In this document: positions 212-6,537 of the stretch, one piece after another
Layout of the letters: the number at the start of each line of letters is the position of its first letter
Position numbering within the stretch: position 1 is the stretch's first letter
Source: an archaeon
GTDB taxonomy: Archaea > Hydrothermarchaeota > Hydrothermarchaeia > JALTZZ01 > JALUTC01
Direction: 5' to 3'
Length of the DNA stretch: 6,537 bases
Assembly (NCBI GenBank): GCA_027051265.1
Contig: JALTZH010000021.1
Coordinates: 1 to 6,537 of the forward strand
Position numbers and translations under genes: made by a program
The notes under the pieces: model-generated
Seen by the model: the letters and a program-made list of their open reading frames with translations, nothing else
Told to the model about the DNA's origin: nothing
Database searches by the model: none

Positions 212-490
212 ATGAAGAAAAGATGTAAATATTGTAAGGAAGAAGCTGTTAACAACAAAGATTTATGTTTAAAACATTTAACAAGTCTGGAAGTCTTTTA
301 TGAGAAAAAAAACGAAATCTATGCGATTAAAACCGAAGATATGAGAATAATAGAGAGAATGATTAAATTAAATCCAGATTTGATAAGATGTCCTATATGT
401 AATAATCCCTTGGAAATTAATCATTGGAAAAAAGAGGAAAACCTACTCAAACCATATTTTATATGTAAAAAATGTAATTTCATAGGATGA
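212..490 (+). CDS. small protein with two zinc-binding knuckle sites, function unknown
   Basis: This 92-residue protein has two separated sets of metal ligands. Near the N-terminus C5, C8, C19 and H22 form CxxC-x10-CxxH. Near the C-terminus C60, C63, C85 and C88 form CPIC-x21-CKKC, a zinc ribbon that ends four residues before the stop. A helical, charged linker (about residues 25-57) joins them. There is no signal peptide or membrane segment, so it should be cytoplasmic. Paired ribbons of this size are common in archaeal nucleic-acid- or protein-binding adaptors, but I do not recognise the family and assign no function. The ATG at 212 has no clear ribosome binding site, as would fit a leaderless start. 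The TGA (488-490) is one base from the glmU-like ATG, so the two are probably co-transcribed. Confidence 0.75.
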   Translation: MKKRCKYCKEEAVNNKDLCLKHLTSLEVFYEKKNEIYAIKTEDMRIIERMIKLNPDLIRCPICNNPLEINHWKKEENLLKPYFICKKCNFIG

Positions 491-491
491 T

Positions 492-1730
492 ATGGATGCC
501 GTAATTCTCGCAGCCGGTAAAGGAAAAAGATTAGAACCAATAACAAAAGTTATACCAAAACCTCTTCTTCCTATACTTGATAAGCCATTAATAGAAAAAA
601 CTATCGAAGCATTAAAAACCTGTAACGTTAAAAATATATTCGTTATCATATCTTATAAAAAAGAACTCTTTGAAAAATTTCTTAAAGAATATGATGTTAC
701 GTTGATAACTCAAAACAAACCTCTCGGCACAGCAGATGCTCTCAAATATGTTAAAGATTACGTTGATGATTCATTTCTAACACTTTTTGGAGATTGCTTA
801 TATTCAATTGAAGATATAAAAAATATTATACAAAAATTTAGTGGAAAACCAATTTTAGGCGTTAAATATTCAAGCGAAGCTTATAAGTATGGTGTTTTAA
901 TAAAAGAAAAATCTCGTTACAAAATAATTGAAAAACCTTCCAACATAAGAGAAGGTTATATCCTTACAGGATTAAATATATTCCTAAACGACATCTTTAA
1001 CTATATAGGTCGTGTAAAAAAATCTGAAAGAGGAGAATATGAACTAACAGATGCTATAAATCTTGCGATGGATAATGATACCTTCGAAATATACGAACTC
1101 AAACATTACTGGAAAGATATAGGAACGTTTATGGATTATATGGATGCATGTTTTCACATGCTAAAGGAAACGGATCAAAAAGTTGAAGGTGAAGTTGCGG
1201 AAAACGTTACTATCAGAGGTAAAGTTATCCTAGAAAAAGGAGCGAAAATCCTACCAAATACATATATCGAGGGGAATGCTTATATAGGAAAAGACTCCAC
1301 CATAGGCCCGTTTGCTAGATTAAGAGGAAACGTTGTAATTGGAAAAAAATGCAAAATCGGAAGTTTTGTTGAAATAAAAAATTCGATAATCTTCGATGAA
1401 ACAAATGTTCCCCATCTTAACTACGTTGGTGATTCGATAATCGCATCGAACTGCAATCTTGGAGCAGGTACAAAAATTGCTAATCTTAGATTGGATGAAA
1501 AAAACGTTAAAATAAGAGTGAAAGGTAAACTGATAGATACTGGAAAAAGAAAATTTGGTTGTGTTATAGGTTTTAATACAAAAATTGGTATAAACGTATC
1601 AATAAATCCCGGAAGAATAATAGGTAATAACTGCAAAATCGGGCCTAATGTTGTAGTATACGAAGATCTCGAAGATAATACCTTCATACTCCTTAAGCAG
1701 GAATATTTGGTCAAGAGGACAGTTTTATGA
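492..1730 (+). CDS. glmU: bifunctional sugar-1-phosphate nucleotidylyltransferase / amino-sugar-1-phosphate acetyltransferase (archaeal GlmU, ST0452-like)
   Basis: A 412-aa cytoplasmic enzyme expected to acetylate glucosamine-1-phosphate (and possibly galactosamine-1-phosphate) with acetyl-CoA and to couple the product to UTP, giving UDP-GlcNAc for glycans and N-glycosylation. The N-terminal half (about 1-225) is a nucleotidyltransferase fold: LAAGKGKRLEPITKVIPKP (residues 6-24), LGTADAL (78-84), the metal-binding FGD (99-101), EKP (147-149) and WKDIGT (207-212). The C-terminal half (about 235-400) is a left-handed beta-helix of hexapeptide repeats with HLNYVGDS (308-315), GAGTKIANLR (324-333) and K337/K340. 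H308, Y311, N331, K337 and K340 fall at the same residue numbers I recall for the catalytic and substrate-tuning residues of Sulfolobus tokodaii ST0452 (about 401 aa), a strong family match. Its stop overlaps the next start by ATGA. Confidence 0.92.
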   Translation: MDAVILAAGKGKRLEPITKVIPKPLLPILDKPLIEKTIEALKTCNVKNIFVIISYKKELFEKFLKEYDVTLITQNKPLGTADALKYVKDYVDDSFLTLFGDCLYSIEDIKNIIQKFSGKPILGVKYSSEAYKYGVLIKEKSRYKIIEKPSNIREGYILTGLNIFLNDIFNYIGRVKKSERGEYELTDAINLAMDNDTFEIYELKHYWKDIGTFMDYMDACFHMLKETDQKVEGEVAENVTIRGKVILEKGAKILPNTYIEGNAYIGKDSTIGPFARLRGNVVIGKKCKIGSFVEIKNSIIFDETNVPHLNYVGDSIIASNCNLGAGTKIANLRLDEKNVKIRVKGKLIDTGKRKFGCVIGFNTKIGINVSINPGRIIGNNCKIGPNVVVYEDLEDNTFILLKQEYLVKRTVL

Positions 1731-3835
1731 AATTGCTCGATTTGAAATTTGTTAGTAATAAGATATATAACGAAATATTAAGAATACGTAACGAATCAAA
1801 AACTGAAGAAGATTTTAAAATTAGGTTCACGAATTTATTAAATGATTTTATTAGAAAATTTATACAAGAAGCAAAATTTGAACATAACATAATTTCAGGT
1901 AGAGCCGATGCTGTTTTAAACAAAATAATAATAGAATTTAAAAAACCACGAATCTTGTCGAGTAACGTTGTTTGTGAAAATAGTATTGAGCAAATAATTA
2001 AGTATATAAGTGAATACTGCAAAAAATATAATGTTGAGAAGCATAAAATTATAGGTATAATAACCGATGGTTTTAAAATAATTTTCGTAAGATATAGAAG
2101 AAACTTTGATCCTATTGTTTTAGATATCTCAGAGAATTCTATATATAGATTGTTAAGTGTATTGTTAAGTTCACAGAGAATCCCAATATCTCCTAAATAT
2201 ATAATTAGGGATTTCGGACACGATTCGTTCTTATATAAAAAAGCTATAAGAATATTATATAAAAAATTAGATACAAGAAATCCAAAAGTTGAAATGTTGT
2301 TTAGCGAATGGAAAAAAATGTTCTCTCTAGTTTGTTCATACAATTATAAAAAGCTTAAAGATTTAGAACGTGAATTGAATATCGGTGAAAGAATTGATGT
2401 TGAAAAATTGCTCTTCGTTATTCATACCTATTATAGCTTGATCATAAAATTTCTAGTATCAGAAGTTCTTACGTTTTATTTTTCTCGTGGTTATATCCCA
2501 ATAAAATCATTTTCATCCAGAATAATCGAAGAAAGAAATTTAAAATATTTTCTAAAAAAATTCGAGGAGAAAGGTTTGGAAGCAATATTTCCAGAGGGAT
2601 TTATTAGAATTGTAAACTTTTTGGAAGGTGATTTCTTCGCATGGTATGTGGAAGTGATTGACAAGGAATTGGAAGAGATCTTAAGAGAGATGGCTGAAAA
2701 AATTTATAATTACGATCCAGCTACCATTGAATTGCAACCAGAGAATGTTAAGGATTTGTTTAAAAAACTCTATCAAAATTTAGTACCTAAAAAGATAAGA
2801 CATGATCTTGGAGAATATTATACACCTGACTGGCTGGCAGAGTTACTCTTTGATGAAATTGGATATGATGGAAATCCAGACATAAGAATCCTTGACCCAG
2901 CTTGTGGTTCAGGAACATTTCTTATAGAAGCTATAAAGAGAGTAAAACAATATTCCTACGAAGAAAACATCGATGATGATATAGTTGCAAGAAAAATACT
3001 CGAAAATATAATTGGATTTGATTTAAATCCTCTTGCAGTAATTACTGCTAGAGCAAATTATTTGATAGCTATAGCAGATATTCTCTATCATTTACGGGGA
3101 AATGTTGAAATACCTATATATTTAACGGATTCTTTATTAGCTTCGAAAGAAAGAAAATTATTTGATATAGAATATACCTTTAAATTATATAATCAAGAAA
3201 TAAAAGTTCCTGAAAATATTGCAAAGAATTCTAAGATTTTTAATCTCATACTATCTTTGGTAAAAGAATACCTTAACTATGATTATAGTCCGAAAGAATT
3301 TCAGGAAATATTGAAGAGAGAAACAGGCATAAATAATGATGCTAAAAACGTCGCCCTAAACTTATATAAAATATTATATAAATTAAAGTTGGAAAAAAGA
3401 GATATGATATGGATAAATATCCTACGAAATATATTCGCACCATTTAGATATTTAAATAGTTTTGATATAGTTATTGGAAATCCTCCTTGGATTAATTGGG
3501 AAAATATTGCCGAAGGTATAAGAGGTAGTTTAAAGAAAATTGTTGAAGAGTACGGAATTTCTCCAAGAGATGATAGAGCTTTACGTAAGATGGATATTTC
3601 ATATATATTTTTATATAGAGTTCTTGATTTATATCTTAAAGATAAAGGAATTCTTGCTTTTCTAATAAATCAAACATGTTTCAAAGGTGTTTCGGGAGAA
3701 GGTTTTAGAAAGATGAAACTTTACGGTAAACCAATAAGAGTTTTAAAAGTTCATGATATGGTTGACTTGCAACCTTTTGAAGATGCTTCTAATAGAACTG
3801 GTGCAATTATAGTTAGGAAAAATGACAAAAGATAA
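1727..3835 (+). CDS. type IIG (Eco57I-like) restriction-modification enzyme, 5' fragment: nuclease and N6-adenine methyltransferase, truncated by a TnpB element
   Basis: A 702-codon frame encoding the front two-thirds of a single-chain restriction-modification protein that would cut unmodified foreign DNA and methylate adenine in the host's own sites. The N-terminus has a PD-(D/E)XK-type signature, GRADAVLNKIIIEFKKP, with D61, E70 and K72. A helical connector follows. The methyltransferase carries motif X-like LGEYYTP (361-367), motif I ILDPACGSGTF (388-398), FDLNPLAV shortly after it, and motif IV IGNPPW (583-588), which marks an amino (N6-adenine) methyltransferase. The frame ends NDKR at a TAA whose last bases come from the inserted element; the target-recognition domain resumes at 5247. 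GAGG at 1715-1718 lies 8 bases before the ATG, which overlaps the glmU stop. Without the recognition domain the fragment should lack sequence-specific activity. Related defence methylases such as BREX PglX share the NPPW core, but the N-terminal nuclease favours type IIG. Confidence 0.87.
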   Translation: MKLLDLKFVSNKIYNEILRIRNESKTEEDFKIRFTNLLNDFIRKFIQEAKFEHNIISGRADAVLNKIIIEFKKPRILSSNVVCENSIEQIIKYISEYCKKYNVEKHKIIGIITDGFKIIFVRYRRNFDPIVLDISENSIYRLLSVLLSSQRIPISPKYIIRDFGHDSFLYKKAIRILYKKLDTRNPKVEMLFSEWKKMFSLVCSYNYKKLKDLERELNIGERIDVEKLLFVIHTYYSLIIKFLVSEVLTFYFSRGYIPIKSFSSRIIEERNLKYFLKKFEEKGLEAIFPEGFIRIVNFLEGDFFAWYVEVIDKELEEILREMAEKIYNYDPATIELQPENVKDLFKKLYQNLVPKKIRHDLGEYYTPDWLAELLFDEIGYDGNPDIRILDPACGSGTFLIEAIKRVKQYSYEENIDDDIVARKILENIIGFDLNPLAVITARANYLIAIADILYHLRGNVEIPIYLTDSLLASKERKLFDIEYTFKLYNQEIKVPENIAKNSKIFNLILSLVKEYLNYDYSPKEFQEILKRETGINNDAKNVALNLYKILYKLKLEKRDMIWINILRNIFAPFRYLNSFDIVIGNPPWINWENIAEGIRGSLKKIVEEYGISPRDDRALRKMDISYIFLYRVLDLYLKDKGILAFLINQTCFKGVSGEGFRKMKLYGKPIRVLKVHDMVDLQPFEDASNRTGAIIVRKNDKR

Positions 3836-3841
3836 GGCAAG

Positions 3842-3861
3842 CCTCGCTTTTTAAAGCGGGG
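3842..3861 (+). repeat. left-end subterminal hairpin of the TnpB element
   Basis: CCTCGCTTT and AAAGCGGGG form a 9-base stem (one G-T pair) around a two-base TT loop, 8 bases inside the inferred left boundary. Imperfect subterminal hairpins of this kind are the sites TnpA recognises in IS200/IS605 elements. It also falls immediately after the truncated host frame's stop codon, but no U-tract follows, so I do not call it a terminator. Confidence 0.7.
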
Positions 3862-3862
3862 T

Positions 3863-3900
3863 AAAATTTAAATATCGAACACTTTATTATATCTATATAA
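3863..3900 (+). promoter_or_regulatory. box A-like promoter of tnpB inside the element
   Basis: AAAATTTAAATAT (3863-3875) is a good archaeal TATA-like element in an otherwise GC-richer end. At the usual spacing it would start transcription near 3896-3900, just before the inverted repeat that begins at 3901. A second T/A-rich run, TTTATTATATCTATATAA, fills 3883-3900. If the first box is used, the tnpB mRNA would have a leader of about 20-25 bases that begins directly with the stem described separately. Confidence 0.5.
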
Positions 3901-3999
3901 GGGCGTGGCGAGGTGGGTGGATTGAGTAGATTACGAGGAAGGTTAAAATTAAGGAACAAGCGAGATAATTGTTTTGTATATACCCATCTCGCCACGCCT
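3901..3999 (+). repeat. long inverted repeat enclosing the tnpB ribosome binding site and start
   Basis: The arm GGCGTGGCGAGGTGGG (3902-3917) is the reverse complement of CCCATCTCGCCACGCC (3983-3998) with a single G-T difference. With flanking wobble pairs the stem reaches about 19 pairs (3901-3919 with 3981-3999) around a 61-base loop. The 5' arm contains the GAGGTG ribosome binding site (3910-3915) and the GTG at 3913; the TTG at 3922 sits at the base of the loop. In RNA the stem would be very stable and would hide the ribosome binding site. It could equally act as a DNA structure of the left end. Confidence 0.75.
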
Positions 4000-5229
4000 C
4001 CATTAACGAGGACATGTAGAGTAAGATTAGCCGTGGATAAGGAAACGGAGGCAAAACTTTTTGAGCTTGGAGATGTATTTGCTAAGTGCTGGAACGAGGT
4101 TAATTATCTCAGAAGGCAGCAATTCTTCAACGAGGTAGGAGTGGATTTTGCAACGACTGAGAAAATGATTTACGATAAGTACAAGAAAATTTTAAAGGTC
4201 AATGCTCAGCAAGTTTCGAGGAAGAATACTGAGGCGTGGAAATCTTTTTTCAAACTTCTTAAGCTTAAGAAGATAGGTAAATTACCATCGTTTATAATTC
4301 CAAAACCACCGGGATATAAAAAGGATAGAAAAAATAATAAAAGAGAACCGTTTTTGGTTATAAGGAACGATAGGTATGAGATTAAGGATTGCTACATTTA
4401 TTTAAAGGATTTTAAGCTCAAACTAAAATATAGAGGTAGAATTCATATCAAAGGCAAACAAAGACGTCTCGAAATCCATTACGACAGCATAAGGAAAAGA
4501 TGGTATGCACATATACCTTTCTACGTCGAAGAAAAAATCGTAAGAAATGAGTGGAGAAAAGTTCCATTAACTCCTAGTGGAAATAAACAAGCAGGTATCG
4601 ATTTAGGCGTCAATAATTTCTTCGCAGTGTTCGTAGAAGATGGAACGACTTTTTTAGTCAACGGAAAACCGTTGAAAGCAGAGGCATTCTATTGGAGGAA
4701 GAAGATTGCCGAAGCTCAATCTAAAGGGAATTTGGATAGAGTTAGAAAGTATTACGTTATATGGAGAAGTAGATTCGAAGCCTATGTTAGATCTAACTTA
4801 AGAGAATTGTTCGAAAAATTATATCATATCGGTGTCTCAGTAGTAAAAGTTGGATACCCTAAGTACATTGCAAAAGAGCCAAATAAAAGTTCAAAGGTTA
4901 ACTTTGAGATAACGAACTTGTGGAGCTACAGAAAAATTCACCAATGGATCAAAGACCTTTGCGAAGAGTACGGCATAAAATATATCCCAGCCGAAGAGAA
5001 AAATTCTTCAAAAACCTGCCCCCTCTGTGGAAAAATCCACAAAAACGGTAGAAAATATAGAGGCCTATTTGTCTGTCCTGTTATGAAAAAAGCTATGAAC
5101 GCTGATTTAGTTGCTGCCTTCAATATCCTCCATAACGGTGAGTCCGCCAATATGGCGGATAGCCGTAACGGGAGTAAGACCGCTCCCTTTTGCTTACTCC
5201 CCGCCTTAGCTGGAACCCTTGCCCTTTAG
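3922..5229 (+). CDS. tnpB: TnpB RNA-guided DNA endonuclease (IS605 OrfB, RuvC fold), variant active site
   Basis: About 435 aa (438 from GTG 3913). I prefer TTG 3922 because GAGGTG (3910-3915) lies 6 bases before it; V41 would be too late because it removes the first beta strand. Numbering here is from the GTG. TnpB cuts DNA matching the guide of an omega-RNA made from the element's right end. The N-terminal part has the family pattern NEVNYLRRQQFF, then a basic region with PKPPGYKKDR. RuvC-I is GIDLGVNN with D230; RuvC-III is NADLVAAFNIL with D398. The expected RuvC-II Glu position, midway at 314, reads VKVGYPKYIA, so Gly replaces Glu. The zinc ribbon is CPLC (369-372) with CPVM (388-391), lacking the fourth Cys. 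From memory, GYP and the missing Cys also occur in other archaeal TnpBs, including Thermococcales ones ending GTLAL as here, so this is probably a clade trait and not decay. The C-terminal tail overlaps the omega-RNA. Confidence 0.9.
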   Translation: MSRLRGRLKLRNKRDNCFVYTHLATPPLTRTCRVRLAVDKETEAKLFELGDVFAKCWNEVNYLRRQQFFNEVGVDFATTEKMIYDKYKKILKVNAQQVSRKNTEAWKSFFKLLKLKKIGKLPSFIIPKPPGYKKDRKNNKREPFLVIRNDRYEIKDCYIYLKDFKLKLKYRGRIHIKGKQRRLEIHYDSIRKRWYAHIPFYVEEKIVRNEWRKVPLTPSGNKQAGIDLGVNNFFAVFVEDGTTFLVNGKPLKAEAFYWRKKIAEAQSKGNLDRVRKYYVIWRSRFEAYVRSNLRELFEKLYHIGVSVVKVGYPKYIAKEPNKSSKVNFEITNLWSYRKIHQWIKDLCEEYGIKYIPAEEKNSSKTCPLCGKIHKNGRKYRGLFVCPVMKKAMNADLVAAFNILHNGESANMADSRNGSKTAPFCLLPALAGTLAL

Positions 5230-5266
5230 GGCGGGGAGGAGGTCAGTCTCATAGCTATCCTTTCAA
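5110..5266 (+). ncRNA. predicted omega-RNA (reRNA) of the TnpB element with guide from the host gene
   Basis: The 3' end of tnpB and the right end fold into consecutive hairpins: 5135-5166 (ACGG/CCGT plus TCCGCCA/TGGCGGA with an ATA loop), 5170-5201 (perfect 9-base stem GGGAGTAAG/CTTACTCCC), and alternatives at the tip, either GCCC-TTTA-GGGC (5221-5232) or CCCCGCC (5199-5205) with GGCGGGG (5230-5236). This is the arrangement known for TnpB omega-RNAs, whose scaffold ends at the right end and whose guide is the next roughly 16-20 flanking bases. Here the guide would begin TCTCATAGCTATCC at about 5247, inside the recognition-domain part of the disrupted gene. The 5' end of the RNA is a guess; processing by TnpB itself is known in the family. 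Confidence 0.65.
5221..5232 (+). repeat. right-end hairpin of the TnpB element
   Basis: GCCC-TTTA-GGGC forms a 4-base stem whose loop and 3' arm contain the tnpB stop codon TAG (5227-5229). It sits 15 bases from the inferred right boundary, mirroring the left-end hairpin, and is followed by GGGGAGGAGGTCAG. It could serve as the right-end TnpA recognition hairpin in DNA and as part of the omega-RNA core, or give way to the longer-range pairing of 5199-5205 with 5230-5236. Confidence 0.5.
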
Positions 5267-6281
5267 GTATATAGTCTGGAAGAAGAAAAAGAACGTCAAA
5301 TCCATATCAACAGATTTAAGTCTAAAAGATGTTCGTGAAAAAACTATTCAAGAAGAATATTTATCAGAACCTTTAGGTGGATACAAAGAAGAGCAAGAAT
5401 TTCAATACCCATGGATAACGGTAAAAAATGAGCAAGAATTAACCTTTTATAGGAAAATATTGGGAAAATCTATGTATAGTTCTCATGAGGGGATTAATAC
5501 AAGAGGCGCTAATGGTGTTTACTGGTTGAAAATTTTAAATCAAAAAGGAAATCTTGTTCTAATAGAAAATCTTGCTGAAAGAAGTAAGAGGAAGGTAAAA
5601 AGAGTAAGAAAATGGGTTGAGAAAGATTTGGTATATCCTCTTGTTTTAACTTCGAATATTGATAAATGGTATTATAATTATAGCTATTACATAGTGATAC
5701 CACATGATACCAATGGAAGATTGATTAATGAGAATTATTTGAAAATAAATTATCCCGAAACTTATAAGTATTTGTATGAATTTAAGAGCATTTTAGCTAA
5801 TAGAAAACTTCATGGTAAAAAAATAAAAGAAAATAACTGGTATATACTTGAGGGTACCAATAGGGGAGTTTTTTATCCTTATAAAGTTGTAATTCCATGT
5901 ATCGGAGAAAGAGAGCTTAGGGCTGTTGTTCTTGAAAGAGTTAAGGATAAATATTTAGGAGAAAAGCCGTTAATGATACAGGAAACATCAATCTATATTG
6001 GATTAAAAGATAGAGAAGAAGCTCATTATCTATGTGCTATTCTCAATTCAAAAACAATTCAAGAAATAATTTCTCAAATAATTATTAAGGGTGGAAAAAG
6101 AGCTATAGGTCCAGGTTCTTTATCTGTATTAAATATACCAAAGTTTGATAAGAATAAAAAGGAGCATATTAAACTTGCGAAACTTTCTATAGAAGCTCAT
6201 GAAGCAAAAAGACAAAAACGTTTATCCTTTTTAAAGAAAATTGAAGATGAAATCAATGAGATCGTTAAAAGGATATTTTAG
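5247..6281 (+). pseudogene. type IIG restriction-modification enzyme, 3' fragment: target-recognition domain
   Basis: These 344 codons continue the protein broken off at 3835. The frame starts SHSYPFKYIVWKKKKN, the stretch that usually follows NRTGAIIV(R/K)K in Eco57I-like methylases. It then carries the recognition region, with conserved-looking features such as YPWITV, LEGTNRGVFYPY and the late block LNSKTIQEII...GPGSLSVLNIPKFD, and closes with a charged helical tail ending EIVKRIF. TaqI/Eco57I-type enzymes read their DNA target through this part. The fragment has no start codon of its own near the junction. The open frame reaches back to a TTG at 5190 only by reading 57 bases of transposon right end out of the tnpB frame; the first in-frame ATG inside is well downstream (MYSSHEG). 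Separate translation is therefore doubtful, but the frame is otherwise intact to TAG 6279-6281, which points to a recent interruption. Confidence 0.85.
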
Positions 6282-6307: not shown

Positions 6308-6537
6308 TCAAAGCTTTTCAAGCTCTTCCATAATTATGGTAAAATCTCTTGAACTAAGCTTATATCCTGTTTTCACCATACTTTTAAATACGTTAACAAC
6401 TTTCTCCTTGTTAATGAAACCTTTTTTGAAAAGAAGCATAAGCAGGTAAACGTTTCCTCTAACTTCTATTCCCAAGATCCTTCCAACAACTCTTGCAGGT
6501 TTTTCATCTATTATAGCAATTCCGTTGAGCTTCTTTC
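6308..6537 (-). CDS. PIN-domain / DUF3368 protein, C-terminal part (VapC-like toxin), partial
   Basis: A minus-strand frame enters from the right edge and stops at TGA (6310-6308), giving 75 residues. It contains IAIIDEKPARVVGRILGIE, the late PIN-domain block in which an acidic pair is followed by AR and LG(I/V), then the DUF3368-like stretch GNVYLLMLLFKKGFINKEKV and a C-terminal helix pair ending EELEKL. PIN proteins of this type are metal-dependent RNases that act as the toxin of VapBC-like pairs in archaea. The N-terminal catalytic acids and any antitoxin partner (upstream on the minus strand, outside the window) cannot be seen. It converges on the disrupted restriction-modification gene across 26 bases. 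The family call rests on pattern recall, without a profile search. Confidence 0.7.
   Translation of the reverse strand, partial: KKLNGIAIIDEKPARVVGRILGIEVRGNVYLLMLLFKKGFINKEKVVNVFKSMVKTGYKLSSRDFTIIMEELEKL

Follow-up and report, generated by a model that had tools for sequence, protein, structure and literature searches.

A TnpB-only IS200/IS605-type element interrupts a type IIG restriction-methylation gene in an archaeal contig

We analysed the whole of contig JALTZH010000021.1 (C21; 6537 bp, hereafter the window), which is part of a 1.46-Mb archaeal assembly (G000) consisting of 257 contigs and 95% complete. In the list of open reading frames (ORFs) of the window, an ORF at 1727-3835 and a second ORF ending at 6281 flank a tnpB gene of 438 amino acids (aa). 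We found that the two flanking ORFs are the parts of one type IIG restriction-methylation gene, interrupted by an IS200/IS605-type element in which tnpB is not accompanied by a transposase gene (Table 1). We consider this, with high probability, as an ordinary disruption, recent, persistent and reversible only in principle, caused by an element of a known kind. It represents a clean natural case in which a defence gene was hit by a TnpB element whose ends are exactly defined, and it leads to a prediction: because the guide and the TGAC target match the intact gene, TnpB should lock the interrupted state and not allow switching.

The boundaries of the element were obtained from the comparison of its copies. 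A search with the element sequence found related copies at 79-91% identity, together with shorter remnants, elsewhere in its own genome. The left ends of the copies in C21, C42 and C79, of a miniature copy in C116, of a copy in the congener G001 and of L080 all consist of TGAC followed by AAAAGATAAGGCAAGCC, with small variations; the left end in C48 is preceded by TTAC instead of TGAC, and the one in C138 is decayed, yet it also starts at TGAC. The right ends close in GGGGAGGAGGTCAG (again with small variations), beyond which the flanks are unrelated. The flanks cannot be slid at the junctions of the element (C against G, A against T), and the element corresponds precisely to positions 3827-5246 (1420 bp), directly after the TGAC target. 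The first-pass annotation of this DNA had placed a 1414-bp element at 3834-5247 (or, equivalently, 3833-5246); the copies and the protein fit described below show its left boundary to lie 6-7 bases too far to the right and its right boundary to be off by 0-1 base. The stop codon TAA at 3833-3835, with which the 5′ fragment terminates, is hence internal to the element. Both deletions preserve the frame only because their lengths are 6 bases apart.

Removal of the 1420 bp gives a continuous in-frame protein of 1044 aa, with ...RKND/SHSYPFKYIVW... at the junction (here and below, the slash marks the junction), in place of the product of about 1046 aa with NDKR/SHSYPF that had been proposed, whose K and R derive from the element. 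The rejoined DNA reads AAAAATGAC/TCTCATAGC, and the corresponding RTGAIIVRKND/SHSYPF aligns ungapped with RTAMIVVGRDGKTEFP and MTSLIVVEKEGETRFP of two intact homologues, so that neither a target duplication nor a loss of bases occurred at the insertion. In agreement with this, the stretch between a conserved RT/MT and a conserved P is 13 residues long in L032, in L034 and in the 1420-bp version, while it is 12 residues long in the homologue L031 and 15 in the 1414-bp version. The proposal of a scarless IS200/IS605-type insertion is thus borne out by the copies with the same ends, by the retained TGAC and by the ungapped fit. Its frame-exactness, which the first-pass annotation had pointed out, is expected of any insertion without duplication: that excision restores the frame follows automatically from the insertion mode of such elements, and it is neither evidence nor a sign of regulation.

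Neither half of the interrupted gene contains stops or frameshifts. The PADLOC profile PDLC03630 (REase_MTase_IIG) matches the 5′ part over profile positions 10-729 (E = 1.7e-194) and the 3′ part over positions 733-1080 (E = 5.1e-55), hence running on across the junction (from 729 to 733), which is more than chance. The 5′ part is also matched by Pfam Eco57I and N6_Mtase, and it contains an N-terminal PD-(D/E)XK-like nuclease motif (D...ExK), which is kept in the homologues, and an N6-adenine methyltransferase with the motifs DPACGSGTF and NPPW. As in the type IIG enzymes of PDLC03630, in which a nuclease, an N6-adenine methyltransferase and a C-terminal recognition region are found in a single chain of roughly 1050-1100 aa, all three are found in the one rejoined polypeptide; the difference is that the window gene is split by the element, which falls between the methyltransferase and the recognition parts. 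Among 198 genomes searched, we found four full-length archaeal homologues (in G188, G028, G144 and G046) with 35-41% identity, whose lengths are 1070-1101 aa except for one longer frame. The frames of all four are open and colinear across the junction position, and therefore the interruption of a restriction-modification gene with two stop-free halves, as well as the existence of uninterrupted sequences spanning the junction, for which the first-pass annotation had suggested to look, are supported by both the family profile and the homologues.

For the interrupted gene, the identity of the 3′ half divided by that of the 5′ half was 0.82-0.98, and for pairs of intact homologues it was 0.79-1.04. 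As the former lies inside the range of the latter, the 3′ half has no measurable decay and the insertion looks recent. The congener G001 has the upstream nucleotidyltransferase gene (72% identity) with a purE-like gene directly after it, and nothing related to the restriction gene was detected in that genome; this absence beside a conserved upstream gene indicates that the restriction gene is accessory. Genome G198, which holds L080 (TnpB 86% identical), has copies of the element and neither the restriction gene nor its upstream neighbour, and is hence uninformative about an empty or a filled site.

As regards the family, another archaeon (G037, locus L066) has an autonomous element, in which a Y1 tnpA lies together with a tnpB of the subfamily found in the window between TTAC on the left and GGCGGGGAGGAGGTCAG at the right end. 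The window element ends in the same GGCGGGGAGGAGGTCAG, and these ends, common to an element encoding Y1, assign the family to IS200/IS605; the lack of tnpA, which is the difference from the G037 element, makes the window element IS1341-like. Like other elements of this kind, it has a lone tnpB between conserved ends with subterminal hairpins, an insertion point 3′ of a short fixed target (TGAC or TTAC) without duplication and a right end that may correspond to an omega-RNA; it differs from them in the alternative glutamate and the missing fourth cysteine of its TnpB (see below) and in that no transposase was found in its genome. With ISDra2 of Deinococcus radiodurans it would share the logic of precise insertion and excision, a guide taken from the right flank and the use of the target motif as transposon-adjacent motif (TAM), while ISDra2 encodes TnpA and targets TTGAT. 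The TnpB of ISDra2, unlike that of the window, presumably has the canonical glutamate.

Most of the other copies in the genome are decayed, and those in C138, C79 and C84 are broken. A stretch of 127 bases at the contig ends is identical between C42 and C32, so they are probably one copy of the element, which perhaps is also intact. The other copies of the family are located between genes or near gene ends, and no preference for the interrupted gene was seen. A DNA search gave no relatives on plasmids, and neither TnpB nor the rejoined enzyme had relatives in viral contigs. Miniature elements, having the left end and an omega-RNA-like right end and no tnpB, were also observed in the same genome (L008 in C116, 286 bp) and in G001 (L085/L087, in C139); the one in G001 splits a short PIN-toxin-like gene, whose rejoined frame is also continuous. 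Moreover, the C42 copy is 99.6% identical in the element and 100% identical in the flank to L080 (WAOB01000018.1), in a contig labelled "DPANN group archaeon", pointing either to the same population or to a contig shared between bins.

The window TnpB exceeds the cut-off of NCBIfam guided_TnpB and is also matched by Pfam OrfB_IS605 and Cas12f1-like_TNB. A RuvC D-E-D triad was recognised by motif only (D230, D398 and an alternative E362): the column of the canonical glutamate is occupied by a glycine, and the alternative E362 is six positions N-terminal to the first CxxC. This arrangement is known from Fanzors and from some TnpBs (PMC10711439). In place of a four-cysteine zinc ribbon, which is present in "many" TnpBs (PMC10711439), the protein has CPLC...CPVM, hence without the fourth cysteine. 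As this second cysteine pair is incomplete in all the copies covering the region, and also in G037, we consider it as a trait of the subfamily and not as damage to the window copy. The ratio between nonsynonymous and synonymous substitution rates (dN/dS) of tnpB was 0.155 against C42 and 0.096 against C32, values which indicate that TnpB is under purifying selection, and on this sequence basis the protein looks functional. As a side observation, the window TnpB (3913-5229), that of L066 (1851-3185) and that of L014 form an archaeal group having a D-hydrophobic-G first motif together with the alternative RuvC glutamate; within this group the fourth zinc-ribbon cysteine is missing in the window and G037 members, the latter being encoded beside a Y1 transposase.

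The right end of the element is structured, with compensatory changes in 8 of the 33 base pairs predicted from an alignment of eight copies. Its matches to Rfam were below threshold, both for HgcC (window 5168-5259; E = 3e-5, 32.4 bits against a cut-off of 50 bits) and for sot0042, a haloarchaeal omega-RNA family (E = 1.5e-4). The predicted RNA continues into the right flank, and with this guide TnpB would be directed to TGAC followed by TCTCATAGC, the sequence of the uninterrupted gene. The HgcC match also suggests that the archaeal HgcC RNA may be related to the right ends of TnpB elements.

Excision of elements of this family requires the Y1 transposase TnpA: for ISDra2, excisions per cell were <1e-9 when TnpB acted alone and 2e-3 with TnpA (PMC2806898). 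We looked for the enzyme and the alleles that excision would imply. Neither the 95%-complete genome nor the congener G001 gave a match to the Y1 TnpA family, while Y1 transposases are present in the same order (G002) and in the same class (G005). Serine recombinases of the IS607 type are present in the genome; they act on different ends, and therefore we did not count them as excision machinery. The assembly contained the restriction gene in its interrupted form only, with neither a further copy nor an empty one. Hence the two alleles and the interconverting enzyme that characterise a phase-variable defence gene were not found within the assembly, and literature searches returned nothing relevant on IS605/TnpB insertions in restriction genes or on switching.

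The disruption can be explained as follows. A transposase supplied from elsewhere would have moved the TnpB-only element in the past, with insertion 3′ of TGAC in the type IIG gene. The 5′ product ends two codons into the element and hence lacks the recognition part, so that the loss of restriction is expected to go along with that of modification, and the gene bearing the element presumably has no enzyme activity. TnpB has been proposed to cut the empty site, after which the element is put back (PMC8612924, PMC11870625). If the window TnpB is active as a nuclease, as its sequence suggests, alleles emptied through excision would be prone to cleavage, followed by refilling with the element of an occupied copy; since the empty gene is the predicted target, TnpB should oppose the loss of the element, and the interrupted state would be retained. 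We think it unlikely that the element goes further and acts as an RNA-guided suppressor, which would cleave the type IIG gene wherever it occurs empty or arrives intact, holding the defence system inactive in the lineage and spreading the insertion to homologous loci.

Some points weigh against the reading as a persistent disruption. The genome is about 95% complete and split into 257 contigs, so a tnpA present as a repeat may have been missed; the assembly alone was examined, and mixed alleles in the read data would escape it; moreover, with the relocated glutamate and without the fourth zinc-ribbon cysteine in this subfamily, the nuclease activity of TnpB is a prediction. The first-pass annotation put forward an on/off switch, in which precise excision in some cells would restore the type IIG enzyme and produce a mixed population. 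The exact restoration of the frame, the undecayed state of the gene and the Y1 transposases of the same order and class are in its favour, as is the repair of a split tetA by TnpA-driven excision of ISDra2, at about 2e-3 per cell (PMC2806898). Nevertheless, the element has no tnpA and neither the genome nor the congener gave a match to one, the assembly has no empty allele, TnpB would cut such an allele, the other copies show no preference for the interrupted gene, and a type IIG enzyme turned on in an unmethylated genome would risk self-restriction. We therefore regard the switch as improbable, and it would be possible only if the transposase were supplied from outside the assembled genome.

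An old and fixed pseudogenisation, in which the gene is dead and will decay, appears to us just as improbable as the switch: the lack of excision machinery in the genome and the decay of most other copies agree with it, but halves free of stops and frameshifts, with a 3′ half as conserved as in intact pairs, point to a recent insertion, and it differs from a recent, persistent disruption in timing only. Removal at the RNA level (IStron-like or as an archaeal intron), which would give a full-length enzyme despite the insertion, would fit the common orientation of element and gene and the frame-exact removal; however, Rfam gave no match to group I or group II introns over 3700-5400, even at E up to 1, and the ends are transposon hairpins common to copies outside genes, which makes this explanation highly improbable. 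The same very low probability applies to an artefact of assembly, in which unrelated sequences would have been joined via a repeated element: the family is indeed repeated and the assembly fragmented, but the two flanks match a single gene family as its colinear halves, contrary to what a chimeric join would produce, and the nearest other copy of the element in the genome is only 91% identical, so that this explanation is largely refuted.

Table 1. Features of the element and of the interrupted gene (window positions)
Feature	Start	End	Strand	Basis or remark
Type IIG 5′ part, 700 aa: nuclease motif and methyltransferase	1727	3826	+	PADLOC REase_MTase_IIG, Pfam
TGAC target, predicted TAM	3823	3826	+	Retained to the left of the element; present before the left end of 6 of the 7 copies aligned, with TTAC before the other
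TnpB-only IS200/IS605-type (IS1341-like) element, 1420 bp	3827	5246	+	Boundaries from copies C138, C79, C42/C32, C57, C116, G001, G002
Left end with subterminal hairpin CCTCGCTTT..AAAGCGGGG	3827	3861	+	Sequence; conserved in copies
tnpB, 438 aa, GTG start; RuvC D230, alternative E362, D398	3913	5229	+	NCBIfam guided_TnpB above cut-off
Right end and predicted omega-RNA scaffold, overlapping the 3′ end of tnpB	5128	5246	+	Alignment of 8 copies, sub-threshold Rfam matches
Predicted guide TCTCATAGCTATCCTTTCAA, first ~20 nt of the type IIG 3′ part	5247	5266	+	Inferred from the family rule
Type IIG 3′ part, 344 aa: target-recognition and C-terminal region	5247	6281	+	PADLOC profile; colinear with intact homologues

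Outside the interrupted gene, the start codon of the type IIG gene overlaps the stop codon of the upstream nucleotidyltransferase gene (1727 versus 1730). Upstream of the latter, a protein of 92 aa with two CxxC pairs is encoded at 212-490 (+); the DNA match to the congener starts at 204, so this gene may be conserved there. On the other side, a gene at 6308-6535 (-) is truncated by the end of the contig; judged by eye, the intact relatives that it has in G002 are similar to PIN/DUF3368 toxins. This gene has 90% DNA identity to two places in G002, which belongs to another family of the same order; since the nucleotidyltransferase gene is only 72% identical even in the congener, a recent transfer is probable.

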